Positions 5,055 to 22,504 of a DNA stretch of 64,000 bases are shown here, piece after piece. The stretch spans positions 124,001 through 188,000 of the forward strand of contig NZ_JACGWS010000008.1 of the NCBI RefSeq assembly GCF_014397005.1, in the 5' to 3' direction. The position numbers and the translations under genes are program-made. Source of the stretch: Kordia aestuariivivens. Its GTDB lineage: Bacteria; Bacteroidota; Bacteroidia; Flavobacteriales; Flavobacteriaceae. Position 1 is the stretch's first letter. Each line of letters begins with the position of its first letter. The notes beneath the pieces are model-generated. The model searched no databases, was not told where the DNA came from, and worked only from the letters and a program-made list of their open reading frames with translations.

Positions 5055-7052
5055 TTAATTTACTTTTTCAAAATGTAGATTTCGAACGCGGCCATTAGAT
5101 ACTTTATACCCTGTAATCATACCATTAGCATCTCTAATAAATTGGATTTGCCCAAAATTGCCCGTAAACATATCTTCTTTTGCAAGGTTCAAATTTACGT
5201 CACTTAATCTACTGTGTTTCGCGACTAGGCTACCATCAACAATCGTAAAATAATAGGTTGTAGATAATTCTTCGCTATAGTATTCGCCAGAATAATCCGA
5301 TAGATTCACAGAAGTCTTATCGAATGCTTCAACACGCGGCGCTTCCATTATTTGACCACCTTGGTGAAGTTTGATACGTTCAATATTTTTTCCTGAATTT
5401 GGAATAAACTCAATTTTTGCATTCACTCCTTCAACCATATATTCTGTAGTTGATATTGGCGTCAATGAAACCTGTGATTGTCCAGTTGCTAGTGCCGATA
5501 ATTGACCATCATTTGCGCTAATTGTAATAATAAACCCTGGTTGCAATTCAAAATCACCAACATAGGTCGCCGCTATGTTTTGATCAAGAGCAATGACTTC
5601 TGATGTGCTTTCCTCTTTAACTTCTTCTTGTTTCTCTTCAGTTTTGATTTTATCTTTCAGATAGATGTCTACCACTTTATGTGCCATTCTGCCTGAGTTG
5701 AATTCGGCTGAATTACTAAATACAATTACCGCAAAATTTTGGTCAGGAAAACGCGTTAAATATGAACGATACCCTGCGTCTGCTCCTCCATGTTGAATTT
5801 CGTTCAATCCTTTGTATTTGCCAATAAACTGACCAAGTGCTCCTCCAAAAGTTTTTCCGTTATTTAGAACTGCAAGCGTATTCATTGTATTAATGATCGA
5901 TGAATCTCCAACTGTCATGTTCGAAAAATTCATTGACCACAAGCTTAAATCTTCGACGGTAGTAAAAAGACTCGTGGCTCCTACATTTGCAAAATTCAAC
6001 ACACTTTTTTTATATCCGCCAGAAGCGGAATGATAAGAATAGGCTCTGTTCTTTACAATTTTCTCATGATCGTCATAAAACAACGTGTTGTTCATATTTA
6101 GTGGTTCAAAAATGTTCGTCTTCGTAAACTCGGCAAAAGACATATCAGATATTCTAGAAACTACCTCAGCCAAAAGTGTAAATCCAGTATTGCAATATGC
6201 GTATTCGTCTCCAGGATTAAAATTCAATTCCTTTTGCTTACTAACAAGTTTTAAAATATGCTCTTTGGTAATAACGTCGTCCATTCGCCAGCCCGCCATT
6301 GACAATAAGTTCCATTGATCTCTTAATCCACTTGTATGAGAAGCTAAATGCCTCAACGTAATTGTCTTTCCAAAATCGGGTACTTCTGGGATGTATTTTC
6401 GGATATCATCATCTAAACTTAATTTGCCTTGTTTTTCCAATAGAAGAATTGAGAAAACTGTAAACTGTTTTGAAACAGAAGCTATGTGAAATATTGAAGA
6501 GGGACTTATTGGAATGTCATATTCCAAATTCGCCATGCCGTAGCCTTTTTTATATATAATAGCTCCATCTTTAACTATTACAACCGCGGCTCCGGGAGTG
6601 TTATTAGTATCCCAAACTGTAAAAAGCTCGTCGACTTGTTCGTTTTGCGTGACTGCTTTTGGTTTTACACTTTGCATGAGCAATTCGTATGTGCCAGTAT
6701 GTCCTTCTTTGTCAATAGATTCAATTTCAATAATATACTTGCCTTTTTTGTCTGAAGCTAAAGTGAATAATTCATAGCCATTTCTGTAATTAGGGCTGTC
6801 AAAATTTTCTAATTTCTTACCGAGCGTATTATACGTTGTGACTTTTAGATCAATGCCTTGTTGCATTAACTTAAAAAACACAAATTGATCTTTCTCTAAA
6901 TTTATAGTGTAATGATGTTTTTCAGGAAGCGTAATTTCTGATGAAGTTAATTTGCCTTTAACGAGTTCTCCTTTTTGAACTTGAGCTTGAATTATACCTA
7001 TTGGAGTAAGTAATAAAAGTAGAAATGATAATCTAATTATTGTCTGATTCAT
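5055..7052 (-). CDS. Secreted beta-lactamase-family serine hydrolase
   Basis: 665 residues from ATG 7052; a GTG at 7073 in the same frame would put seven residues before the signal peptide and overlaps a GTTGTGTGC boundary, so ATG is preferred. Order: signal peptide 1-24, a pre-peptidase-C-like beta domain about 30-130, a class C beta-lactamase/DD-peptidase domain about 145-470 with S192-V-S-K195, Y286-C-N288 and H421-G-G, then a C-terminal beta-rich region of the kind often appended to Bacteroidota serine hydrolases. A Glu/Lys-rich linker (KTEEKQEEVKEES) joins the last two. Such proteins act as esterases or peptidases in the periplasm or outside the cell; antibiotic hydrolysis is not implied. 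Confidence 0.88.
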   Translation of the reverse strand: MNQTIIRLSFLLLLLTPIGIIQAQVQKGELVKGKLTSSEITLPEKHHYTINLEKDQFVFFKLMQQGIDLKVTTYNTLGKKLENFDSPNYRNGYELFTLASDKKGKYIIEIESIDKEGHTGTYELLMQSVKPKAVTQNEQVDELFTVWDTNNTPGAAVVIVKDGAIIYKKGYGMANLEYDIPISPSSIFHIASVSKQFTVFSILLLEKQGKLSLDDDIRKYIPEVPDFGKTITLRHLASHTSGLRDQWNLLSMAGWRMDDVITKEHILKLVSKQKELNFNPGDEYAYCNTGFTLLAEVVSRISDMSFAEFTKTNIFEPLNMNNTLFYDDHEKIVKNRAYSYHSASGGYKKSVLNFANVGATSLFTTVEDLSLWSMNFSNMTVGDSSIINTMNTLAVLNNGKTFGGALGQFIGKYKGLNEIQHGGADAGYRSYLTRFPDQNFAVIVFSNSAEFNSGRMAHKVVDIYLKDKIKTEEKQEEVKEESTSEVIALDQNIAATYVGDFELQPGFIITISANDGQLSALATGQSQVSLTPISTTEYMVEGVNAKIEFIPNSGKNIERIKLHQGGQIMEAPRVEAFDKTSVNLSDYSGEYYSEELSTTYYFTIVDGSLVAKHSRLSDVNLNLAKEDMFTGNFGQIQFIRDANGMITGYKVSNGRVRNLHFEKVN

Positions 7053-7322
7053 ATGAATATCTTTTAATTGCACACAACGTATTCCTTTGTAATAAATATC
7101 TTTATTAAGAGAAATATGGTAATGATCCGCATATAGTAATGACGAATAATTTCAATTTTTGTAACAGTTAGTTTTTATGAATGATTTACTACAACGTTTT
7201 TCTTTAGTTGCGTTGGCTAGTTCTAAAGTTAATGAAAGAAAACGAACCAGAGAGGAATCCGTAGGGTTTTCTGAGTAGATGAGAATGAGTAATAAATTAT
7301 ATATGTTGTTATTGAGTCGTTG
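7053..7322. other. Gap with partial cassette-boundary motifs
   Basis: No coding signal. Plus-strand CACACAACG (7072-7080) is the 5' boundary motif of the serine hydrolase gene (minus-strand GTTGTGTGCAATTAAAAG). A second CAACG motif is at about 7193. The right edge carries GTTGTTATTGAG and then GTTGTTAAC, the latter overlapping the stop of the DUF1801 gene. The arms pair poorly, so this looks like eroded or compound boundaries. Confidence 0.3.
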
Positions 7323-8464: not shown

Positions 8465-8837
8465 GTAGAAAGTCTAATCTTTAAAGCGATTCACAACGGT
8501 TTGTGTATGAATCGTAGCGTGCAAAAATACGTTAACTTTATAAGGTAAAATGTGAAAACAGCTATAAAAGTTTCTATTGTTTCTTCTAGAATAAAACAAA
8601 ATTTGACCTTTACATTGTGGTTTTCTGTAATTATTGATAACTTCATTAGAAACTAAAGGTAAAAGGAACGTCTTTACGAACGCTAGTGAAGCAATCTTGT
8701 GATCGTTTTTTATTAAACAGACTACCGCTAACGTGTCACTATCGTTCCTCGTAGTGACGCAAAAGGTTATTTTAAAGAATTCATAATAAAACCATCATTT
8801 TTAAGTATTTCATTGAATAATTCGCAATAAAAAGCCG
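8465..8837. other. Gap with cassette half-site and repeat
   Basis: Left part: CACAACGGTTTGTGTATG with GAATCGTAGCGTG (8492-8521), the same left arm as in the site at 16171 (GCAACGGTTTTGTATATG, AACGTAGCGTG). No matching right arm was found. Dispersed repeat copy 3 follows (8566-8700), then a hairpin of GTCACTA with TAGTGAC (about 8736-8759). No coding signal. Confidence 0.45.
8566..8700 (-). repeat. Dispersed upstream repeat, copy 3
   Basis: Shares with copies 1 and 2 AAAGTTTCTATTGTTTC, AATAAAACAAA, ACATTGTGGTTTTCTGTAAT, GAAACTAAAGGTAAAAGGAA and GAAGCAATCTTG. It lies about 100 bases 5' of the NUDIX start in the same orientation. Confidence 0.6.
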
Positions 8838-9128
8838 TTTGAAAGCTTCCCGCAGCAATGCAACAAGCTTCCCAACGCGTTTGAAACGTCCCTGCAGACT
8901 TGCGACAAGCTTTCCAACGTGTTTGAAACGTTCCTGCAGTCGTGCAACAGCTTTCCAACATGTTTGAAACGTTCCTGCAGTCGTGCAACAGCTTTCCAAC
9001 ATGTTTGAAACGTTCCTGCAGTCGTGCAACAAGCTTTCCAACGTGTTTGAAACGTTCCTGCAGTCATGCAACAGCTTTCCAACGTATTTGAAAGCGTCTC
9101 GCAGACGTGCGACAGGCTTTCCGACGTA
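8838..9128. repeat. Seven tandem 41/42-bp repeats
   Basis: Units start TTTGAAACGTTCCTGCAG and end GCTTTCCAACATG; starts are 8838, 8880, 8922, 8963, 9004, 9046 and 9087 (lengths 42, 42, 41, 41, 42, 41, 42). The length difference is one A (ACAGC versus ACAAGC). Units 3 and 4 are identical; the outer units are most diverged, with GAAAGC in place of GAAACG. Each carries PstI-like CTGCAG in most copies and the small palindrome AACGT/ACGTT across the junction. All minus frames stay open through it, giving overlapping Cys/Ser/Thr-rich pseudo-proteins, so coding is doubtful. Confidence 0.9.
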
Positions 9129-9185
9129 TTTTACTTGTTTAGGTGTATTTACATGATGCTTCCGTTTGATGATGGAAAGAAGTCG

Positions 9186-15292: not shown

Positions 15293-15736
15293 TTATTCTT
15301 TTATTCTACTTTTCAAGTAATATAAGTACAAGAAAAGTCCAGCCAAAGTAAAAACTAAAAATCTGATGATAAGAAAAATAGCTTCTGCTGTATTTCCTCT
15401 ATATTCAATAACGGCTTCTATATCAATCCACAATACGCAAGCAATTATAATACTGATTCCAATTTTGCCAAATAATAAATTTAGACTTTGACTTGTAGTG
15501 AATGCTGTATTTTCTCTTCGAGTCAAATACGTTTTTCTAAAAAAGGTCATTTCTAGTAGTATTCCCAAAACCCACGAAATTGAAGTGACAATCAGAAATA
15601 TGGTAAGTCCTTCGCCCATTGGAATACGTATAAATGTAGTGAGTACAAAGAATAAAATCAATCCAGGAACGAAGTTGACCATGAATTTATCTAGTATAAT
15701 TTCGTTAAAAAATGCTTTAATAGTGCTGTTGTTCAT
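15293..15736 (-). CDS. Small multi-pass membrane protein, hypothetical
   Basis: 147 residues with four hydrophobic segments (about 22-36, 44-62, 90-106, 122-140) and a conserved-looking charged loop (FFRKTYLTRRENTAF). No known motif; family not recognised. It pairs with the zinc-ribbon protein 10 bases downstream. Confidence 0.68.
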   Translation of the reverse strand: MNNSTIKAFFNEIILDKFMVNFVPGLILFFVLTTFIRIPMGEGLTIFLIVTSISWVLGILLEMTFFRKTYLTRRENTAFTTSQSLNLLFGKIGISIIIACVLWIDIEAVIEYRGNTAEAIFLIIRFLVFTLAGLFLYLYYLKSRIKE

Positions 15737-15870
15737 TTGAATATGTTTTTAAGATTATTAATATTACGGCTATTATATTCATCTTTTAAAAGTAAGAAAT
15801 TACGATTGGTTTATTGTGATTAAATAAAACTAAAGGAGGTTTTCGCAATTCATTGTCATGTTTATTTTCT

Positions 15871-16137
15871 TCAGCAAGTATCGTTTTTGGGTTTTTCAAA
15901 CCTTGTTTTATAGTTGTTTATATAATTTTCATAATCTGTGATTTTTTTACCACCTGAAATACGAATTAATTCTTTTGAATGAATCTCTGCCATTATTTTA
16001 TAATCCAATGAATCAAAAGCTAGATAAAATTTCGCCCAGATTTTATTGATCTCTTTTAGGTTCTCTAGAGATTGAGAATTGCCTTGATTTGTGAAAACGA
16101 TCAAGAATAATCTAAAGAAGATAAACTTGTTAAACAT
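15871..16137 (-). CDS. Truncated secreted NTF2-like protein
   Basis: 88 residues. A short signal peptide (MFNKFIFFRLFLIVFTNQGNS) precedes SLENLKEINKIWAKFYLAFDSLDYKIMAEIHSKELIRISGGKKI, the first helices and strand of a DUF4440/SnoaL cone fold. Such domains need about 120-140 residues, but the frame stops after KPKNDTC, so the last strands are missing. A run of A near 15889 suggests a frameshift, but the alternative frame (ILAEENKHDNELRK...) does not restore an obvious NTF2 end. Probably a broken gene. Its 5' edge is the boundary motif GTTGCACAC; no matching 3' boundary was found. Confidence 0.5.
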   Translation of the reverse strand: MFNKFIFFRLFLIVFTNQGNSQSLENLKEINKIWAKFYLAFDSLDYKIMAEIHSKELIRISGGKKITDYENYINNYKTRFEKPKNDTC

Positions 16138-16166
16138 AGCTGCTATTATATTTTTTCTTTTGTGTT

Positions 16167-16304
16167 GTGTGCAACGGTTTTGTATATGGAACGTAGCGTG
16201 TAAATTGACGCTAATTTTCGGTTTGGCACAGACTTTAGCAATTCCGAGTGGATTCGGACATAGTCGAATCCGCCGTAATTGCGGTTATACATTGTTGTAG
16301 CACG
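16167..16304. other. attC-like cassette site (site f)
   Basis: Left GTGTGCAAC then GGTTTTGTATATGG; right GGTTATACATTGTTG and TAGCACG, ending at the stop of the next gene. The arms GTATA/TATAC pair while the left GGTTT has unpaired bases, like the extrahelical bases of integron attC sites. Inside is a hairpin GGATTCG/CGAATCC (16250-16271). The right end GTTGTAGCACG equals GTTGTAGCACATT at the 5' end of the same gene (minus strand of 16807-16816). Non-canonical relative to GTTRRRY. Confidence 0.65.
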
Positions 16305-16790
16305 TTATTTATATTCATATTTATTCCGCCAAATATCTTCTCCTTTCAAAAAGTCAAGTAGTATTTCAGTCATTTGGTCAACTGTTGCTATCGGCTTTAC
16401 CATTAGAATATGGTCGTCGTCTGTCACAAATCCAGAAGCCAATCCATCTTCCAATAAACTTCCACTCACGTGTAAACCTTTAAAAGAATTATCACTTTCG
16501 TCTTCCAGTTGCACAATGTGAAATTCATTCCAGTTAATTGATTCCATCGTGCTTTTTATTATTTCCGCTGTCGCTTTTTCAGATATGGTTTTTGTGTTTC
16601 CTTCATAGTCATAAGAGACAGTAAGTTTTAAATCTCGTTTTTCTTGTCGGATTTCACGATTCCGTAATTCAGTCTTGTTTTCGGCAATTCCAAGTGTGTT
16701 TGAATTCCGTTTTGAATTCCAGCTAATCAAAGCAAATATTCCGATTAATGCTAAAAATCCGAAGATTATATAGGTATTCATTCTTTTCAC
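16305..16790 (-). CDS. Hypothetical anchored protein (cassette gene)
   Basis: 161 residues. One hydrophobic segment (YIIFGFLALIGIFALISW, about 7-24) then a soluble domain with DLKLTVSYDYEGNTKTISEKATAEIIKSTMESINWNEFHIVQLEDE and GLASGFVTDDDHILMV. I do not recognise the family; the mixed strand-helix pattern suggests a small single domain outside the membrane. The unit is bounded by cassette motif GTTGTAGCAC on both sides. The stop codon abuts the site at 16294-16304 and the start is 16 bases from the next site. Confidence 0.68.
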   Translation of the reverse strand: MKRMNTYIIFGFLALIGIFALISWNSKRNSNTLGIAENKTELRNREIRQEKRDLKLTVSYDYEGNTKTISEKATAEIIKSTMESINWNEFHIVQLEDESDNSFKGLHVSGSLLEDGLASGFVTDDDHILMVKPIATVDQMTEILLDFLKGEDIWRNKYEYK

Positions 16791-16806
16791 GTTATTTTGG
16801 TTTAAT

Positions 16807-16843
16807 GTGCTACAACGGTTTTATACACCGTGTTGTGCGTTCG
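16807..16843. other. attC-like cassette site, very short (site g)
   Basis: Only 37 bases: GTGCTACAACGGTTTTATAC then ACCGTGTTGTGCGTTCG. Arms ACAACGGT and ACCGTGTTGT pair with one bulged G. The left end belongs to the gene ending at 16305 (GTTGTAGCAC) and the right end GTTGTGCGT to the gene ending at 16848, whose 5' edge is GTTGTGCGTCATT. Shorter than known attC sites (about 57-141 bases). Confidence 0.65.
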
Positions 16844-16847
16844 TTTT

Positions 16848-17474
16848 TTATAAATTTCCATAGACAATAATGTCATCAGCATACCTTAATTGAATATTGA
16901 ACCATTTAATTAAATCTCTAATAAACAATTCTACATTTGGGTCTTTTGTTTTGATTTTAGACATTCTTTCAACAATAATTCTACTCGTTTTATTGTCAAA
17001 AAAATTATTACTTGTATAGCTAAAAGAAGATTGTATTGAACCGTCATCTAAATCTTTCATTGGGAATACTGATTCAAAAGCTTCAATAACATATTCAAAA
17101 TCTTTAGTTTGAATAAAGAGGCTTTTATCTCTTGAAGTTAAATATTTGTCAAGGCTTTCATTTTCTGCCCATAATATAAATCCTATTTTATGAATGGACT
17201 CATTTGAGTTAATTGTCAGATAGGACAACTGCTCGTGTATTTTTTTGATAGATTTCTCTATGTCAAATTCACAAATTCTATAATATTTATCAGCTGTTAT
17301 TTCGTCACATTCAGTAAGTCTACATATAGTATTGATGTTGTTTCTATGGAACTCTTGTTCGCAAGTCAATAAATCACCATCATTCTCAATTATCAATTCT
17401 TTGGCTAAATCCAAAGGGATTGATAATCTTTCTCTAAGTTCTTTTATTTTTTGAAAGTCTATTTTTAGTTTCAT
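16848..17474 (-). CDS. Hypothetical protein with UBA-like helical start
   Basis: 208 residues from ATG 17474; a TTG at 17492 inside the cassette site would add six residues. The N-terminus MKLKIDFQKIKELRERLSIPLDLAKELIIENDGDLLTCEQEF resembles the three-helix UBA/EF-Ts-like fold that begins LR..T..g..dck.AL. The rest is a mixed domain ending DLIKWFNIQLRYADDIIVYGNL. No known enzyme motif; function unknown. Bounded by cassette motif GTTGTGCGT on both sides. Confidence 0.7.
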   Translation of the reverse strand: MKLKIDFQKIKELRERLSIPLDLAKELIIENDGDLLTCEQEFHRNNINTICRLTECDEITADKYYRICEFDIEKSIKKIHEQLSYLTINSNESIHKIGFILWAENESLDKYLTSRDKSLFIQTKDFEYVIEAFESVFPMKDLDDGSIQSSFSYTSNNFFDNKTSRIIVERMSKIKTKDPNVELFIRDLIKWFNIQLRYADDIIVYGNL

Positions 17475-17483
17475 TGCTTTAAT

Positions 17484-17560
17484 GACGCACAACGGTTTGG
17501 CTAAAAAGCGTTGCTGTCCCGCAGGGCAGCTATGATTTTTTTAGCCATTGTTGTGTGTCG
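17484..17560. other. attC-like cassette site (site h)
   Basis: 77 bases. Left GACGCACAACGGTTTGGCTA, right TTTTAGCCATTGTTGTGTGT. Arms GGCTAAAAA/TTTTTTAGCC pair; the left arm has extra GGTT. Inner hairpin GCTGTCC/GGGCAGC (about 17513-17530). Left end matches the other end of the gene at 16848 (GTTGTGCGT), right end GTTGTGTGTCG matches the 5' edge of the gene at 17567 (GTTGTGTGTCATT). Best attC look-alike here. Confidence 0.72.
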
Positions 17561-17566
17561 TTTTTA

Positions 17567-18223
17567 TTAATAATTAATGTTTTCCCAAACCAGCAAATCT
17601 TCAATTCTTTCCAATCTCAAGTCTTCAGATTCATTAATCACTTGAAATCGGTTTGCAAATTTTTCCAAAGTCGATTCCGCCTCTTTAATAGCCTTTTTCA
17701 ATTCCTCTTTTCTTAATTGAAAAACTCTTCTTTTAGGAATTGGGGTAAATTCTTCATCAAACTCCTGAACATTCAAGTCAAATACAATCTCCTCATTCTT
17801 AAACTTTACAATCGGAGCAGGATGTCCTTCGTAATAAGATTCTTTGGTATTCGATATGTTTCTCCAAAATTGGATGTCTCCTAAATCTCCGCAACATTGT
17901 GGATAGAAAAGTCTTTCTCCATTGATTTCGAGAACATATCCACCAAACAATGGACTTGCTTGGTCACGGTCATAATCACCATTTCGTAGCTCTTGAGTAT
18001 GATCAACTACAATTTTTTTTAAGTTATCGTCACTAATTAAATCAATTTCATAAAGAGAAGCTCCAGGGTCAATTGGTATAAAAGAATCCTTAAATCCTGC
18101 TTTTTTGTATGACTTGTTATTGAAATCATCCCATTCATTGGGGTATTCCCAATATGGTCCATGTTCAGGAGTTTCGATCCCCTGATTTGCATATCCGATT
18201 TCTATTACTGGTATTAATCTCAT
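17567..18223 (-). CDS. Hypothetical protein (cassette gene)
   Basis: 218 residues, soluble, no signal peptide. Aromatic-rich N-terminal half (GPYWEYPNEWDDFNNKSYKK, ERLFYPQCCGDLGDIQFWRN) and a charged helical tail (RRVFQLRKEELKKAIKEAESTLEKFANRF, about 165-195). The pattern of a small acidic aromatic protein with a paired Cys-Cys recalls immunity or barnase-inhibitor-like proteins, but I cannot place it in a family. Bounded on both sides by GTTGTGTGTC. Start ATG is preceded by AAAGAAA. Confidence 0.68.
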   Translation of the reverse strand: MRLIPVIEIGYANQGIETPEHGPYWEYPNEWDDFNNKSYKKAGFKDSFIPIDPGASLYEIDLISDDNLKKIVVDHTQELRNGDYDRDQASPLFGGYVLEINGERLFYPQCCGDLGDIQFWRNISNTKESYYEGHPAPIVKFKNEEIVFDLNVQEFDEEFTPIPKRRVFQLRKEELKKAIKEAESTLEKFANRFQVINESEDLRLERIEDLLVWENINY

Positions 18224-18234
18224 TTTCTTTTAAT

Positions 18235-18412
18235 GACACACAACGCCAAATATATGAATCGGAGCAAGGCAAACAAGCCAGGACCAATCGATTTATCTGC
18301 GCATTTTTATTTCTTATTCAATTTATAAAAATCTAGCGCCATCGCAAAAAGGAAATGATCTTTCGATTGACACTAAACTTTGCTCTGATTTTATATATGA
18401 TGTTAACAATAG
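18235..18412. other. attC-like cassette site (site i)
   Basis: 178 bases. Left GACACACAACGCCAAATATA then TGAATCGGAGCAAGG; right TTTGCTCTGATTTTATATA then TGATGTTAACAATAG. The arms pair over GAGCAA, GATT and ATATAT with bulges. The left end belongs to the gene at 17567; the right end GTTAACAATAG equals the 5' edge GTTAACAATAATT of the gene at 18413 (minus strand of 19127-19136). Confidence 0.65.
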
Positions 18413-19123
18413 TTACTCCAGTTCTTTGCCATTAACATATGAGATTTCTTTTATTAGGTTCCCATTAATATCATACTCTTTTAGTATCCCATTACCATTT
18501 TTTAACGTGCCGATATCTAGATCGTTTCCTTTTCCATCAAAACAAGACGTTACGTTCATCAATTTGCCAGTTGTCCAGTATTTGATTTGATATATTTGAC
18601 CGTTTTTATGATATGATTTCCATTCTCCATCGGGGTTTGCATTTATATAAACACCACTATCTTTTAATTGTCCGTTTTCGTGATAATATTTCCATAAACC
18701 ATCATAATTCTTTCCATTTATCACTTCACCACTTTTTTTAAGACTTCCATTTTCAAAATAAAATTTCCAGATTCCAGTAGGCTTACCGTCTTCGTAAGTT
18801 CCTATTTCTGATAACTGACCATTATCATAATAATATTCACCATTTCCAATTAGAAAATTATTTTCATAATTCGCTCTAAATTTTAATTGCCCATTTTCAT
18901 AGTAAGTTTTCTTTTCTCCAAACACTTTTTCATTTTCGTCGTGATATAAAACTTCTTTTAATTGTCCATTTTCATAAAAAGCTTTCCATTCTCCAATTCT
19001 TTTACCATTTTTAAATTTTCCCGTTACCGATAATTGTCCGTTATCATAATATTTTTTATAATTCTCTATATTATCACAGGCAAGAAAAAGGATTAGAATA
19101 GAAGAGAAAAATATTTTTTTCAT
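18413..19123 (-). CDS. MORN-type repeat lipoprotein (YwqK-like)
   Basis: 236 residues. Lipobox ILFLAC with Cys16. The body consists of about eight MORN_2-type repeats of pattern YY-[DE]-NGQL...G...-G-x-W (for example KYYDNGQLSVTGKFKNGKRI, WKYYHENGQLKDSGVYI), ending YDINGNLIKEISYVNGKELE. YwqK-like proteins of this type appear as antitoxin-labelled or surface lipoproteins; the antitoxin label is weak and no toxin gene is beside it. Bounded by GTTAACAATA on both sides, so it travels as one cassette. Confidence 0.85.
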   Translation of the reverse strand: MKKIFFSSILILFLACDNIENYKKYYDNGQLSVTGKFKNGKRIGEWKAFYENGQLKEVLYHDENEKVFGEKKTYYENGQLKFRANYENNFLIGNGEYYYDNGQLSEIGTYEDGKPTGIWKFYFENGSLKKSGEVINGKNYDGLWKYYHENGQLKDSGVYINANPDGEWKSYHKNGQIYQIKYWTTGKLMNVTSCFDGKGNDLDIGTLKNGNGILKEYDINGNLIKEISYVNGKELE

Positions 19124-19126
19124 AAT

Positions 19127-19265
19127 TATTGTTAACGTGTTTGTGTATGGTTAGTTGCGTGATTTAAGCGCTAAAGTTAGCAAATAAATCACAGATAGAA
19201 AGTCCGCGAGGACTTTCGTAAATAGGCTAGAACTAGCAATTAATTTTATACTGTGTTGCCAGTAG
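19127..19265. other. attC-like cassette site (site j)
   Basis: 139 bases. Left TATTGTTAACGTGTTTGTGT then ATGGTTAGTTGC; right GCAATTAATTTTATACTGTG then TTGCCAGTAG. Arms pair at GTAT.., TTA and TTGC. The middle has a perfect hairpin GAAAGTCC/GGACTTTC (19199-19218). Left end belongs to the MORN gene; right end GTTGCCAGTAG equals the 5' edge GTTGCCAGTAATT of the gene at 19269. Confidence 0.65.
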
Positions 19266-19268
19266 TTT

Positions 19269-20045
19269 TTATTCAAATTCAATAATTTCTTTTCCTTCAG
19301 TTCTGATTTGAAACAACTTTCGTAATTTAAAGTTTCCTGAATTTTCAATATAGAATCTTAAATTCTCAAAATTTATAGTAGTTGTTCCATTTTGTTCATT
19401 AATCAAAGTTTTTGCGTATTGTTTTCTTTTCTCTAGAAATCCACTTTCTTTTTTGTCGATAAACCATAGAGTTCTTAATTCGTCTTTATCTATTGCAATT
19501 GAAAAGTCTCTAAATGTTAATTCTTTTGAGTTTTGATTTATATTGCTCAAATCAAATAATTCTCCAGAAGAGAAAATAACATTTGTATTTTTATTAGAAA
19601 TCCAGTCTTTTAAATGAATTCCTTGTTGGAAATTGATTTGGTCATTTAGATGCAAATGAACAAGTTCTTGATATTTGAACTTGTTTTTGAGAAAGTACAA
19701 GTCGATGAATTTTTTTTTGCCATTATCGTATAATTCATATTTTAATTTCCCTTTTTGATTAATTGTTTTTTCAAATCCACAATTTCTATTTCCGTAGTTT
19801 ATATTCAAATAAATTTTAGCTTTCTTGAATTTTACGATTTCTGCTTTTTTAAAATCTTTTGATGTATTTAAACTACCAATAATCTTATTATTATCAGAAT
19901 TTTTTAAAACAATGTTTAAATTTCCATATTTGGTTTTGTCATCCTTTTTTTCTAGGTTAATATAGATATCAACAGGAACGAGTTTCCTTGAACATCCAAA
20001 AATCAGACATAAACAAAATAGAAGAGTTATTTTTCTTAAAGTCAT
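19269..20045 (-). CDS. Hypothetical lipoprotein (cassette gene)
   Basis: 258 residues. Lipobox LIFGC with Cys18. Lys/Asn/Ile-rich, mostly beta-strand: VDIYINLEKKDDKTKYGNLNIVLKN, KAKIYLNINYGNRNCGFEKTI, then TLWFIDKKESGFLEKRKQYAK. No known motif; family not recognised. Very low G+C compared with the ribosomal genes of the window. Bounded by GTTGCCAGTA on both sides. Confidence 0.7.
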   Translation of the reverse strand: MTLRKITLLFCLCLIFGCSRKLVPVDIYINLEKKDDKTKYGNLNIVLKNSDNNKIIGSLNTSKDFKKAEIVKFKKAKIYLNINYGNRNCGFEKTINQKGKLKYELYDNGKKKFIDLYFLKNKFKYQELVHLHLNDQINFQQGIHLKDWISNKNTNVIFSSGELFDLSNINQNSKELTFRDFSIAIDKDELRTLWFIDKKESGFLEKRKQYAKTLINEQNGTTTINFENLRFYIENSGNFKLRKLFQIRTEGKEIIEFE

Positions 20046-20142
20046 TTTTTATAATTTAAGCCTAATATAATTCAGATGATTTATTTATGAAAGTTAGAAT
20101 GAGTGTAAGCTAGTTTTCATTGAGTTAACGAGTTTCTCAAAT

Positions 20143-20279
20143 TACTGGCAACGGTTTGGCTAAGAAACGTGCGGCTTTCAAACTGTGAATTTCATCGCCA
20201 AGATGAATTTGGTTTGAAAGATAATATGTGAATGTTTACCGTTCACCGAGCATGTTTGCTTAGCCTTTGTTGTAGCACG
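20143..20279. other. attC-like cassette site (site k)
   Basis: 137 bases. Left TACTGGCAACGGTTTGGCTA then AGAAACGTGC; right GCATGTTTGCTTAGCCTTTG then TTGTAGCACG. Arms GGCTAAG/CTTAGCC and CGTGC/GCATG pair; the left GGTTT is again oversized. The middle folds as CTTTCAAAC/GTTTGAAAG enclosing AATTTCATC/GATGAATTT (20173-20221). Left end belongs to the gene at 19269; right end GTTGTAGCACG matches GTTGTAACACATT at the 5' edge of the gene at 20293. Confidence 0.7.
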
Positions 20280-20292
20280 TTTTTTATTTTTT

Positions 20293-20712
20293 TCAGCCTA
20301 TACTTGCTACTGTTAGCGAGATAAGTGTCACTGTTAGTATAACTGTTCCGATTATATTGAATATTGAAATTTGCCATTTGATCTCATTTCTTTTAGTCCA
20401 AACGTAAAATCCAATTGCAGTACAGATCAAAGCTATTGCAAGTCCGCCCCATTCAAAGAAAAACGGCAAGGTGTAGGAAGGAGCTAGAAGGAGAATTGTT
20501 CCAGTCCAAATTCCACCTTGAATTGTTTTTCTGTACTTGTCAATGTCCAATAGTGAAAAAGCTGAAACAATGGCAAATGGAAAGAATAGAAGTCCTGCAA
20601 ACAGAATATAGAAAGGCATCATTCCGCCTTCTTTAAAAGCCCAAATCGAAATGATTGTCATAGAAGCAATAATTCCGATTAATTGGTAATAGCTTAAATA
20701 CCTGTTTGTCAT
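20293..20712 (-). CDS. Small four-TM membrane protein (cassette gene)
   Basis: 139 residues with four membrane segments (about 8-25, 30-52, 65-90, 113-135). Sequences such as YYQLIGIIASMTIISIWAF and GGMMPFYILFAGLLFFPFAIVS lack catalytic motifs; family not recognised. It is the last unit of the array: its 3' edge is GTTGTAGCAC and its 5' edge GTTGTAACAC (20725-20734). Confidence 0.7.
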   Translation of the reverse strand: MTNRYLSYYQLIGIIASMTIISIWAFKEGGMMPFYILFAGLLFFPFAIVSAFSLLDIDKYRKTIQGGIWTGTILLLAPSYTLPFFFEWGGLAIALICTAIGFYVWTKRNEIKWQISIFNIIGTVILTVTLISLTVASIG

Positions 20713-21148
20713 TTTTTTTTTAATGTGTTACAACATATGTATATACGGAATTCCGTATATTTCTATTATATCTAAACCCTTGTAACAACTTAGTTTTTCA
20801 TTAAAAACAAGCTATTTTTTTTAGTACAAAGAACAAGACATCTATAGTTTTACTCTCAAAAGGATATATATAACAAAATATATAGATATTATTTCCTTTT
20901 AAGTGTAATAAAAAAGGAAAAACAGATATAGTAAGTTCCGTATATCATACTAATTATAGGGAATAACAGGAATTTTTCTCCAAAGTTCCTATTATTTTAT
21001 AAATGTAAAACAAAGATTACACATACACAATGCGTTTTCCCGTAATTACCACTATTTCCAGTATTATTCCCTAAAATAATTCTCCCAAAAGAAAATTCCC
21101 AAAAGTCCAAAACTACTTTTATCTTTACACTTTAGAATTCTACAACTC
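20713..21148. other. Gap at the end of the cassette array
   Basis: 436 bases between the last cassette gene and divergent mpl. It contains the terminal boundary motif GTGTTACAAC (20725-20734), then a perfect 20-base palindrome at 20741-20760 (ATATACGG.. CCGTATAT) whose half recurs as TTCCGTATAT at 20936-20945, and dispersed repeat copy 4 (20981-21070). TATCTTTA at 21120-21127 may be a weak -7 element for mpl. No coding signal. Confidence 0.45.
20981..21070 (-). repeat. Dispersed upstream repeat, copy 4 (partial)
   Basis: Shares CAAAGTTCCTA, TGTAAAACAAAGATTACAC, ACACAATGCGTTTTCCCGTA and the following TTAC block with copy 1 (3926-4073), but lacks the GAAGCAATCTC end. It lies about 270 bases 5' of the gene at 20293 in the usual orientation. 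Confidence 0.6.
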
Positions 21149-22504
21149 ATGCGAATACATTTTATAGCAATTGGCGGAAGTGCCATGCACAACTTAGCCT
21201 TAGCATTACATGCCAAAGGATATCAAATTACAGGAAGTGACGACGTTATTTTTGAACCTTCAAAAGGACGATTGGCCGCAAAAGGCTTGTTGCCAGAAAC
21301 GTTTGGCTGGTTTCCAGAAAAAATCACGACGGATTTAGACGCGATTATCTTAGGAATGCACGCAAAACCTGACAATGCAGAGTTGCTAAAAGCGCAAGAA
21401 TTAGGTGTAACCATCTATTCGTATCCAGAATTCTTATACGAGCAATCGAAACACAAAACACGTGTGGTTATTGGCGGAAGTCATGGAAAAACGACAATTA
21501 CTTCCATGATTTTACATGTATTGAACTATCATGATATTGCGGTTGATTATATGGTGGGCGCGCAATTAGATGGTTTTGACACGATGGTGCATCTGACGGA
21601 AGAAAACGATTTTATAGTATTAGAAGGTGACGAATATTTATCATCGCCAATTGATCGTCGCCCAAAATTTCACCTATACAAACCAAACATTGCGTTGCTA
21701 AGCGGAATTGCGTGGGATCACATCAATGTATTTCCAACGTACGAAAACTATGTGGAGCAATTTCAAATCTTTGTAGATTCTATCACAAAAGGAGGAAGCA
21801 TTAATTACAATGAAGAAGATGCAGAAGTAGTTCGCGTAGTGGAAGCTTCTCAAAATCCAATTCGTAAACTCAGCTATAAAACACCAAATTACAAGATTGA
21901 AAATGGCGAAACGTTACTAGAAACGCCTGATGGTTTGATGCCAATAGAAATATTTGGAAAACACAACTTAAACAATCTGGCAGGAGCAAAGTGGATTTGC
22001 CAACATATTGGTGTCGATGAAGAAGATTTCTACGAAGCAATTTCGACGTTTAAAGGCGCAAGCAAACGTTTGGAAAAGATTGCCGAACACAATTCTACAG
22101 TAGTGTACAAAGACTTTGCACATTCGCCGAGTAAAGTACAAGCAACCACAAACGCGGTAAAAGAACAATACGCAGACCGAACGGTTTTGGCATGTTTAGA
22201 ATTACACACATACAGCAGTTTGAATGCCGAATTTTTAAAAGAATACAAAGGCGCGTTAGATGCAGCGGATAAAGCAGTCGTTTTCTATTCGCCGCATGCG
22301 GTTCAAATCAAGCAATTGGAGGAAGTTTCGGAAGCGCAAATTGCGGAAGCTTTTGAGCGTGATGATTTAATTATTTATACCGATCCAGCAGCATTCAAAG
22401 ACTATTTATTTAGTCAATCATTAGAAAATACCGCCTTATTATTAATGAGTTCAGGAAACTATGGCGGATTAGATTTTGCCGAATTTAAACAACACATACA
22501 CTAA
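21149..22504 (+). CDS. mpl: UDP-N-acetylmuramate:tripeptide ligase Mpl
   Basis: 451 residues. The N-terminus MRIHFIAIGGSAMHNLALAL is the MurC/Mpl nucleotide-binding start; the ATP-binding GGSHGKTT is at 109-116, and DFAHSPSK and FEYSPHAVQ-like FYSPHAVQIKQL lie in the C-terminal ligase domain. MurC has a different, shorter signature, and the sequence AIGGSAMHNLALAL plus GAQLDGFD point to Mpl. It joins recycled L-Ala-gamma-D-Glu-meso-DAP to UDP-MurNAc in the cytosol. Start is the first gene on the plus strand, divergent from the cassette array. Confidence 0.9.
   Translation: MRIHFIAIGGSAMHNLALALHAKGYQITGSDDVIFEPSKGRLAAKGLLPETFGWFPEKITTDLDAIILGMHAKPDNAELLKAQELGVTIYSYPEFLYEQSKHKTRVVIGGSHGKTTITSMILHVLNYHDIAVDYMVGAQLDGFDTMVHLTEENDFIVLEGDEYLSSPIDRRPKFHLYKPNIALLSGIAWDHINVFPTYENYVEQFQIFVDSITKGGSINYNEEDAEVVRVVEASQNPIRKLSYKTPNYKIENGETLLETPDGLMPIEIFGKHNLNNLAGAKWICQHIGVDEEDFYEAISTFKGASKRLEKIAEHNSTVVYKDFAHSPSKVQATTNAVKEQYADRTVLACLELHTYSSLNAEFLKEYKGALDAADKAVVFYSPHAVQIKQLEEVSEAQIAEAFERDDLIIYTDPAAFKDYLFSQSLENTALLLMSSGNYGGLDFAEFKQHIH

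Follow-up and report, generated by a model that had tools for sequence, protein, structure and literature searches.

Introduction

How do six consecutive genes, all on one strand and each enclosed by an inverted repeat of its own, come to stand side by side in Kordia aestuariivivens, a member of the Flavobacteriaceae (Bacteroidota)? They lie in a stretch of 64,000 nucleotides (contig NZ_JACGWS010000008.1, positions 124,001 to 188,000 of the forward strand), called the window here, whose numbering is used below unless stated otherwise. An earlier note had described them as an integrase-less array of integron-type cassettes. The analysis reported here makes it very probable, on sequence grounds, that the six genes are cassettes of an integron-like system of Bacteroidota; their array appears to stand at a remote attI site, served in trans by a recombinase encoded elsewhere in the genome.

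Cassette ends pair within units

From position 20734 to 16174 the minus strand carries six consecutive one-gene units (Table 1). GTT, seven bases and ATT open each unit; at its other end the seven bases recur as their complement, with AAC after them, and then come an imperfect hairpin and the next unit's GTT. Of the 42 variable core bases, 40 agree within units (two mismatches), which bears out the claim that each gene has its own inverted terminal motif. Across the five junctions the mismatches number 6, 3, 6, 1 and 5 of 7. When the six cores are re-paired, 2 of the 720 pairings are equally good, the mean being 22.7 mismatches; the second is explained by two units that share nearly one core. 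The repeat length of 10-11 bases first proposed has to be corrected: the terminal repeat covers about 13-14 bases, with a constant mismatch at base 11.

When 199 genomes of the family were searched for a pattern, long arrays came to light in some of them, although the pattern stood out in only part of the genomes. Sites were then called with a covariance model, R1, built from an alignment (A1) of 28 diverse junctions. R1 contains the hairpin and the AAC/GTT triplets and leaves out the private core, so that junctions are called independently of the feature tested. In the fetched stretches it detected 331 sites at E ≤ 0.01, of which 311 have AAC/GTT ends; these delimit 278 units (two stretches overlap by 4 kb), nearly all from genomes other than that of the window. 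Core mismatches within these units average 0.48 of 7 (194 perfect, 67 with one mismatch, 17 with more), against 4.28 of 7 across junctions and 4.30 in a next-unit control. The cores are therefore complementary within a cassette and not across a junction, as the earlier note had it; the outcome that the note named as a refutation, a within-unit match no better than the across-junction match, does not occur. The window's exception among the 278 units arises from the remnant hairpin of cassette 5, which R1 missed. At 13 named-record loci outside the R1 training set, 33 of 37 units show no more than one mismatch and the across-junction mean is 4.54; in the genus of the window the proportion is 11 of 15.

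The 261 units with at most one mismatch contain 121 distinct cores. At base 11 the 5' end carries A in all of them and the partner is G in 93%; beyond this base, pairing mostly resumes. This fixed mismatch explains why the motif had been noted to run into GTT on the 3' side of the genes and on the 5' side mainly into ATT. Of the core, GTT and a purine at base 4 alone are conserved, base 5 being T, G or C (0.49, 0.33, 0.18) and base 6 being C, G or A (0.45, 0.30, 0.24). Classical attC cores have the form RYYYAAC / GTTRRRY. The present cores do not take the GTTRRRY form, a point on which the earlier note was right.

Other ways of counting were abandoned. Chaining units by matching ends alone gave 1018 units, with 857 on reversed sequence, and was dropped as a count; its chains still supplied candidate junctions to the seed alignment. 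A regular-expression site caller proved too strict (135 sites, with 9 in shuffled sequence), and a 14-base pattern applied to the window's own genome returned mostly noise (49 matches, with 72 for the reversed control). Two genomes considered as pattern-negative controls (G014 and G033) were rejected, both having sites beside their recombinases.

Hairpins and the bottom strand

In the hairpin consensus, 10 of the 12 pairs show compensating changes on both sides (28 sequences). Stem mispairs are unevenly divided: on the gene strand A.C, which is G.T on the bottom strand, occurs 163 times and G.T 19 times. A single stem pair supplies 117 of the 163, and without it the figures are 46 and 16. Core base 11 is likewise A.C on the gene strand in 242 of the 261 units, a T.G wobble on the other strand, and its fixed mismatch points to the bottom strand. 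DNA folding of the sites in the form they would have in a circle gives a more stable bottom strand in 240 of 242 cases (mean -29.5 vs -25.0 kcal/mol), and this circle form is better than the array form in 234 of 242, by 6.1 kcal/mol on average. The sites thus have, in silico, an attC-like imperfect hairpin with a favoured bottom strand. Folded bottom-strand DNA is known from integrons (PMC2727003).

A tyrosine recombinase linked to the arrays

Searched with TIGR02249, the integron integrase model, the array genomes yield tyrosine recombinases below the cut-off; no match exceeded it (265 bits) in any of 14 genomes. Both ends of the model are matched and the part at about 180-238 is not: eight of these recombinases score 188-216 bits, each in two stretches, against 404-476 bits for eight bona fide IntI. 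Compared with the integron integrase structure 2A3V, chain residues 180-245 have no counterpart. With NF040815 the eight recombinases score 207-247 bits, six of them above the cut-off of 220, and they align to XerA structures. The predicted structure of the Seonamhaeicola recombinase (mean pLDDT 80, pTM 0.54) has 2A3V and archaeal XerA as its closest folds, in a near tie. R283, K308/K311, H372, R375, H398 and Y407 (first-row numbering) are invariant in 14 aligned proteins, from which a broken copy in G025 was excluded; we take these positions to be the catalytic residues of a tyrosine recombinase. In many of the recombinases (alignments A5 and A9) an additional N-terminal domain is seen, predicted as beta-beta-alpha-beta-beta-alpha at residues 6-65 of the model.

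In a phylogenetic tree, 26 of 30 recombinases form one group (support 93/77) apart from IntI and from the XerC/D of the same genomes, four falling elsewhere, and IntI forms its own clade (100/100). A joint clade of the 26 and IntI is not rejected by the approximately unbiased (AU) test (p 0.225), so that an origin independent of IntI cannot be claimed.

Of 17 recombinase loci, 11 have a matched first cassette that begins 29-114 nucleotides (nt) from the first base of the recombinase stop codon; in many cases a palindrome and about 6 nt stand before it. At these 11 loci recombinase and cassettes run in the same direction. Around recombinase relatives at 85 loci (80 genome, 5 plasmid), 64 sites at E ≤ 1 were found in 21 loci, 60 of them on the recombinase strand and all 60 downstream. 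In some other genomes (e.g. G234, G242, G249, G365) the sites lie opposite to the recombinase strand, as in classical integrons. One chromosome (G159; L060, L061, L062) has two platforms with identical recombinase and attI and different cassettes, and a third recombinase that differs.

The attI-like leader of the window array

The genome of the window has its own recombinase of this kind, on contig C3 (428 aa, L059:8261-9547), one of the 11 with a matched first cassette. Four R1 sites follow downstream on the same strand and form its own array. Six TIGR02249 matches occur in this genome, none of them on the window's contig (C45). The description as integrase-less is accurate for the window locus but not for the genome, in which a fitting recombinase stands beside its own array.

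The leader behind the C3 recombinase ends AATATACGGAATTCCGTATATACATAC before GTT, and its last 27 bases recur, with one change, before cassette 1 of the window. As a pattern (≤3 mismatches) this leader has 17 copies in 6 of 11 genomes of the genus, with none for the reversed control pattern. Among 16 attI copies examined, 13 are followed by a first cassette with matched cores (≤1 mismatch) and four have a recombinase directly upstream, at 90-93 bases; a second leader type is found at several of the remote copies. The window's genome has five attI copies, and the leader of the window array belongs to the recombinase-linked type (gttta..tagaaatatac), as on C3. With 13 of 16 copies loaded and only four adjoining a recombinase, a single recombinase appears to serve several attI copies in one genome; the window array would then occupy a remote attI of this kind and be served in trans by the C3 enzyme.

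Gain, loss and movement of cassettes

In ten sister species none of the six cassette genes was found in 19.5 kb around the ligase gene (tblastn, E 1e-6). Five sisters (G586, G585, G583, G584, G179) have a short empty site there: only 153-251 bases separate the ligase gene from the left neighbour gene, and the edges of the site match positions 15677-15823 and 21073-21165. On the left, homology stops at 15801-15823 in these five; in G581 an 82-base match reaches 15888, which makes the left end of the block uncertain. On the right, homology resumes at 21073-21100 in all nine sisters examined. In G580 an attI-like leader and a first cassette are located 6.4 kb from the ligase gene.

Elsewhere single cassettes do occur at new places with exact ends. 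Among 274 cassettes there are 26 full-length pairs of at least 80% identity, 20 of them at least 95%. In these 20 the right flanks are unrelated (identity 0.23-0.48); the left flanks are unrelated in 14 and alike in six, probably because the left neighbours have the same hairpin type. One pair spans two genera (G159 and G075; 89% identity over 698 bases). The two recombinase and attI copies of G159 are 99.9% identical over 1232 bases through GTT, after which different cassettes follow. Four plasmid records match the region of the window array. On pPP2, a plasmid of Persicobacter psychrovividus (Cytophagales), there is an 86% relative of cassette 6 (16285-16819); the two have the same cores but not the same neighbours. 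The 18.5-kb stretch of pPP2 in which it lies has 25 R1 matches at E ≤ 0.1, 14 of them below 1e-6.

Distribution and cargo

R1 sites were found in 97 of 395 genomes sampled from the phylum and the recombinase clade in 116 (cut at E 1e-65, where a gap lies). Scored with up to eight sites and up to four recombinase candidates per genome, 64 genomes have both, 33 sites only, 52 the recombinase only and 246 neither, an odds ratio of 9.2 uncorrected for kinship. All 21 site-holding recombinase loci are from Bacteroidota by title; those looked up belong to the NCBI classes Flavobacteriia, Cytophagia, Sphingobacteriia and Bacteroidia. Sites number 34 in Winogradskyella ursingii, 32 in Seonamhaeicola aphaedonensis and 32 in Algibacter onchidii.

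The hairpin of cassettes in other genomes is most often about 120 nt long. An open reading frame (ORF) of at least 50 aa is present in 258 of the 278 units; in 235 the longest one runs in the array direction, occupying a median of 0.93 of the unit, and the median distance from ORF end to 3' core end is 15 nt. One hundred cassette proteins, mostly from those 235 units, match 51 Pfam families, 44 of them seen once. Matches to a defence library include a PtuA-like ATPase and PD-T4-1. Of the six genes in the window array, only that of cassette 3 matches a Pfam family (MORN_2).

Resistance genes

Among the best 40 plasmid matches for recombinase relatives, 29 are from Acinetobacter. On one Acinetobacter plasmid (L231:4516-7415) a short recombinase relative lies immediately upstream of tet(X5) and estT, and the GTT at 5353 has an attI-like palindrome in front of it. 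A record with the same match names the recombinase relative TnpF, the tpnF of tet(X3) contexts (PMC7722449). At the tet(X5) locus, the one examined, neither a matched 3' core nor an R1 site was found, and the link is for this reason suggestive only.

In Riemerella anatipestifer an aph(3')-IVb unit (27-bp 5' UTR, gene and 140-bp 3' UTR) integrates without flanking homology, its 140-bp tail folds attC-like, and the same is cited for lnu(H) and blaRATA (PMC13148043). Its authors name no recombinase and describe the mechanism as not fully elucidated. As far as the published description allows comparison, this unit resembles the present cassettes in being a homology-free gene unit with an attC-like 3' fold.

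Coordinates of the array and neighbouring features

R1 recognises five sites within the window array (Table 1). Further to the leader side, the segment at about 20926-20985 resembles, by eye, a decayed attI leader of the second type, as at remote sites in sister species. Weak attC-like sites occur at 7193-7310 and 8495-8621 (30.0 and 24.4 bits) around genes for DUF1801 and NUDIX proteins; matched cores were sought at both and none was found, and they are possibly decayed cassettes. A 41-base unit is repeated in tandem, in about seven copies, at 8837-9131 between the NUDIX gene and a GH2-like gene.

Table 1. Features of the inserted block (window coordinates; cores are read on the gene strand)
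Feature	Position	Strand	Sequence	5' core start	3' core end	Hairpin	Gene	R1 match
Leader-side remainder of block	20780..21078	unassigned						
attI-like leader	20735..20779	minus	palindrome ATATACGGAATTCCGTATAT (20741-20760), 6-nt spacer, GTT of cassette 1					
Cassette 1	20153..20734	minus	5' core GTTGTAACAC	20734	20269	20268-20153	20293-20712, 139 aa	20150-20271, 33.1 bits
Cassette 2	19137..20152	minus	core GTTGCCAGTA	20152	19255	19254-19137	19269-20045, 258 aa	19134-19257, 66.2 bits
Cassette 3	18245..19136	minus	core GTTAACAATA	19136	18402	18401-18245	18413-19123, 236 aa, MORN_2 repeats (Pfam MORN_2 2.2e-31)	18242-18404, 37.3 bits
Cassette 4	17494..18244	minus	core GTTGTGTGTC	18244	17550	17549-17494 (short)	17567-18223, 218 aa	17491-17552, 37.1 bits
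Cassette 5	16817..17493	minus	core GTTGTGCGT	17493	16832	16831-16817 (remnant)	16848-17492 (ORF as listed)	
Cassette 6	16176..16816	minus	core GTTGTAGCAC	16816	16294	16293-16176	16305-16790, 161 aa	16173-16296, 56.7 bits
Far end of block	15824..16175 (left edge uncertain)	minus	GTTGCACACA				15871-16137, 88 aa	

Interpretation and alternative explanations

The integron interpretation of the earlier note draws support from the private cores, the attC-like hairpin, the exact-ended relocated cassettes, the absence of the block in sister species and the linked tyrosine recombinase. In the mechanism suggested by these features, a cassette consists of GTT, seven private bases and A, the gene, then C, the complement of the seven bases and AAC, plus the hairpin. 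In a single-stranded circle, judging from sequence and folding energies, the two cassette ends would meet to form one long attC-like stem, better formed by the bottom strand. A XerA/IntI-like tyrosine recombinase would cut at GTT and insert the circle at attI, which would be the palindrome, about 6 nt and GTT; in the genus of the window, one such recombinase appears to serve several scattered attI copies.

Several results weigh against this interpretation. At the window locus the six genes are absent from all ten sister species, but the change is the gain of a whole block and not of single cassettes. The motif described at both ends of gene 16848 (cassette 5) is real in that the cores match over nine bases, but the hairpin is a 15-base remnant that escapes R1; and for gene 15871 at the far end of the block a matching 3' core was looked for by eye and none was seen. 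Cassette 6 and its pPP2 relative differ in their hairpins, which implies that hairpins are not always carried along with the gene. Within an array the R arms of neighbouring cassettes are unpaired (4.28 of 7 mismatches), so that excision is harder to explain than insertion of a circle. Shuffled sequence retains part of the strand difference (-11.0 vs -9.5 kcal/mol), and with a criterion of at most one mismatch a few of the matched first cassettes at the attI copies of the genus may be due to chance. No matched first cassette was found nearby at 6 of the 17 recombinase loci, no site was called in 52 of the 116 genomes that have the recombinase, and no recombinase of the clade was found in 33 of the 97 that have sites. 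Finally, the wider search suggested by the earlier note did find further arrays and a recombinase, but the IntI-specific segment is absent from these recombinases by both profile and alignment.

The leader type of the window array also suits a different history, in which a complete integron lost its recombinase gene by deletion and left the array as a remnant: the leader is of the recombinase-linked type, like that of C3. This must be considered possible but doubtful, because tblastn (E 1e-20) found no recombinase remnant in the window, 12 of the 16 attI copies in the genus have no recombinase in the fetched stretch, and the second leader type is common to several remote attI copies. These observations agree better with an integron-like array at a remote attI.

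Two further explanations leave integrons aside. Since the units have inverted termini and hairpins, they could be small non-autonomous transposons mobilised by a DDE or HUH transposase, with the hairpins as ends. This is very improbable: the termini differ between units (121 distinct cores in 261), copies that recur within arrays include the hairpin, and the enzyme linked to the units, a tyrosine recombinase, has a fixed place and direction. Still harder to credit is the view that the hairpins act in RNA, as terminators or attenuators separating genes of one direction, and that the inverted repeats are incidental. Their position close behind the ORFs (a median of 15 nt to the 3' core end) would suit such a role, but the repeats pair across the whole gene, the cassettes recur as units, and Rfam gave no match in three array stretches. 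The wobble pairs moreover favour the strand opposite to the gene strand, and together with the folding energies this bias speaks for folded bottom-strand DNA and against a role as RNA.

For cassettes of an integron-like system at a remote attI, a broader picture seems rather likely. Bacteroidota would have an integron system of their own, with a recombinase lineage devoid of the IntI segment, in which, among hosts of one genus, one trans-acting recombinase serves many scattered attI, most of them loaded, and cassettes circulate among chromosomes and plasmids of distant hosts. This system may be the homology-free route of Riemerella and may have handled the tet(X) segment before Acinetobacter.

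Comparison with known systems

The Vibrio superintegron is a sedentary chromosomal integron composed of IntI, attI and attC, with repeats of about 120 bp. Sedentary chromosomal integrons and the present arrays have in common a tyrosine recombinase, an attI, one-gene cassettes mostly in one direction and an attC-like hairpin 3' of the gene, as well as complementary cassette ends, bottom-strand folding and exact-ended copies. However, the recombinase described here has no IntI segment and lies outside the IntI clade in the tree, in which a joint clade with IntI is not rejected. The core is a set of seven private bases with a fixed A.C at base 11, in an R stem of about 14 bases. In many cases attI consists of a palindrome with about 6 nt between it and GTT, and one genome may hold several scattered copies. 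Recombinase and cassettes are co-directed at the 11 loci with a matched leader, and many of the recombinases have the extra N-terminal domain. Judged from its sequence, the array works like an integron; under a strict definition, which requires the IntI segment and a GTTRRRY core, it falls outside that class.

Clusters of attC sites lacking integron integrases (CALIN) are defined by two or more attC sites with no integrase beside them. With these the window array shares several sites (five by our own model R1) and no adjoining recombinase; it differs in the attI-like leader that precedes it and in the fitting recombinase that the genome encodes on another contig. XerA is a chromosome-dimer resolvase. 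The recombinases studied here resemble archaeal XerA and the family NF040815, 'site-specific tyrosine recombinase/integron integrase', in their NF040815 scores and their alignment to XerA structures; unlike XerA, they stand beside cassette arrays, and many have the additional N-terminal domain.

Bacteroidetes are reported to be poor in integrons, IntegronFinder 2.0 adding one complete integron, in Salinibacter ruber (PMC9024848), yet the phylum is listed among those with integrons by reviews (PMC8618304). IntegronFinder is described as searching for the IntI-specific domain (PMC9668308), the domain that is missing from the recombinase found here. No description of such a system was met in titles and the beginnings of abstracts, a survey that left most subscription papers and bioRxiv preprints uncovered. 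If the recombinase handles folded single-stranded sites without the IntI segment, the definition of an integron integrase becomes directly testable. The system is a vehicle for many small genes of unknown function, and it may account for resistance-gene units whose movement needs no flanking homology.

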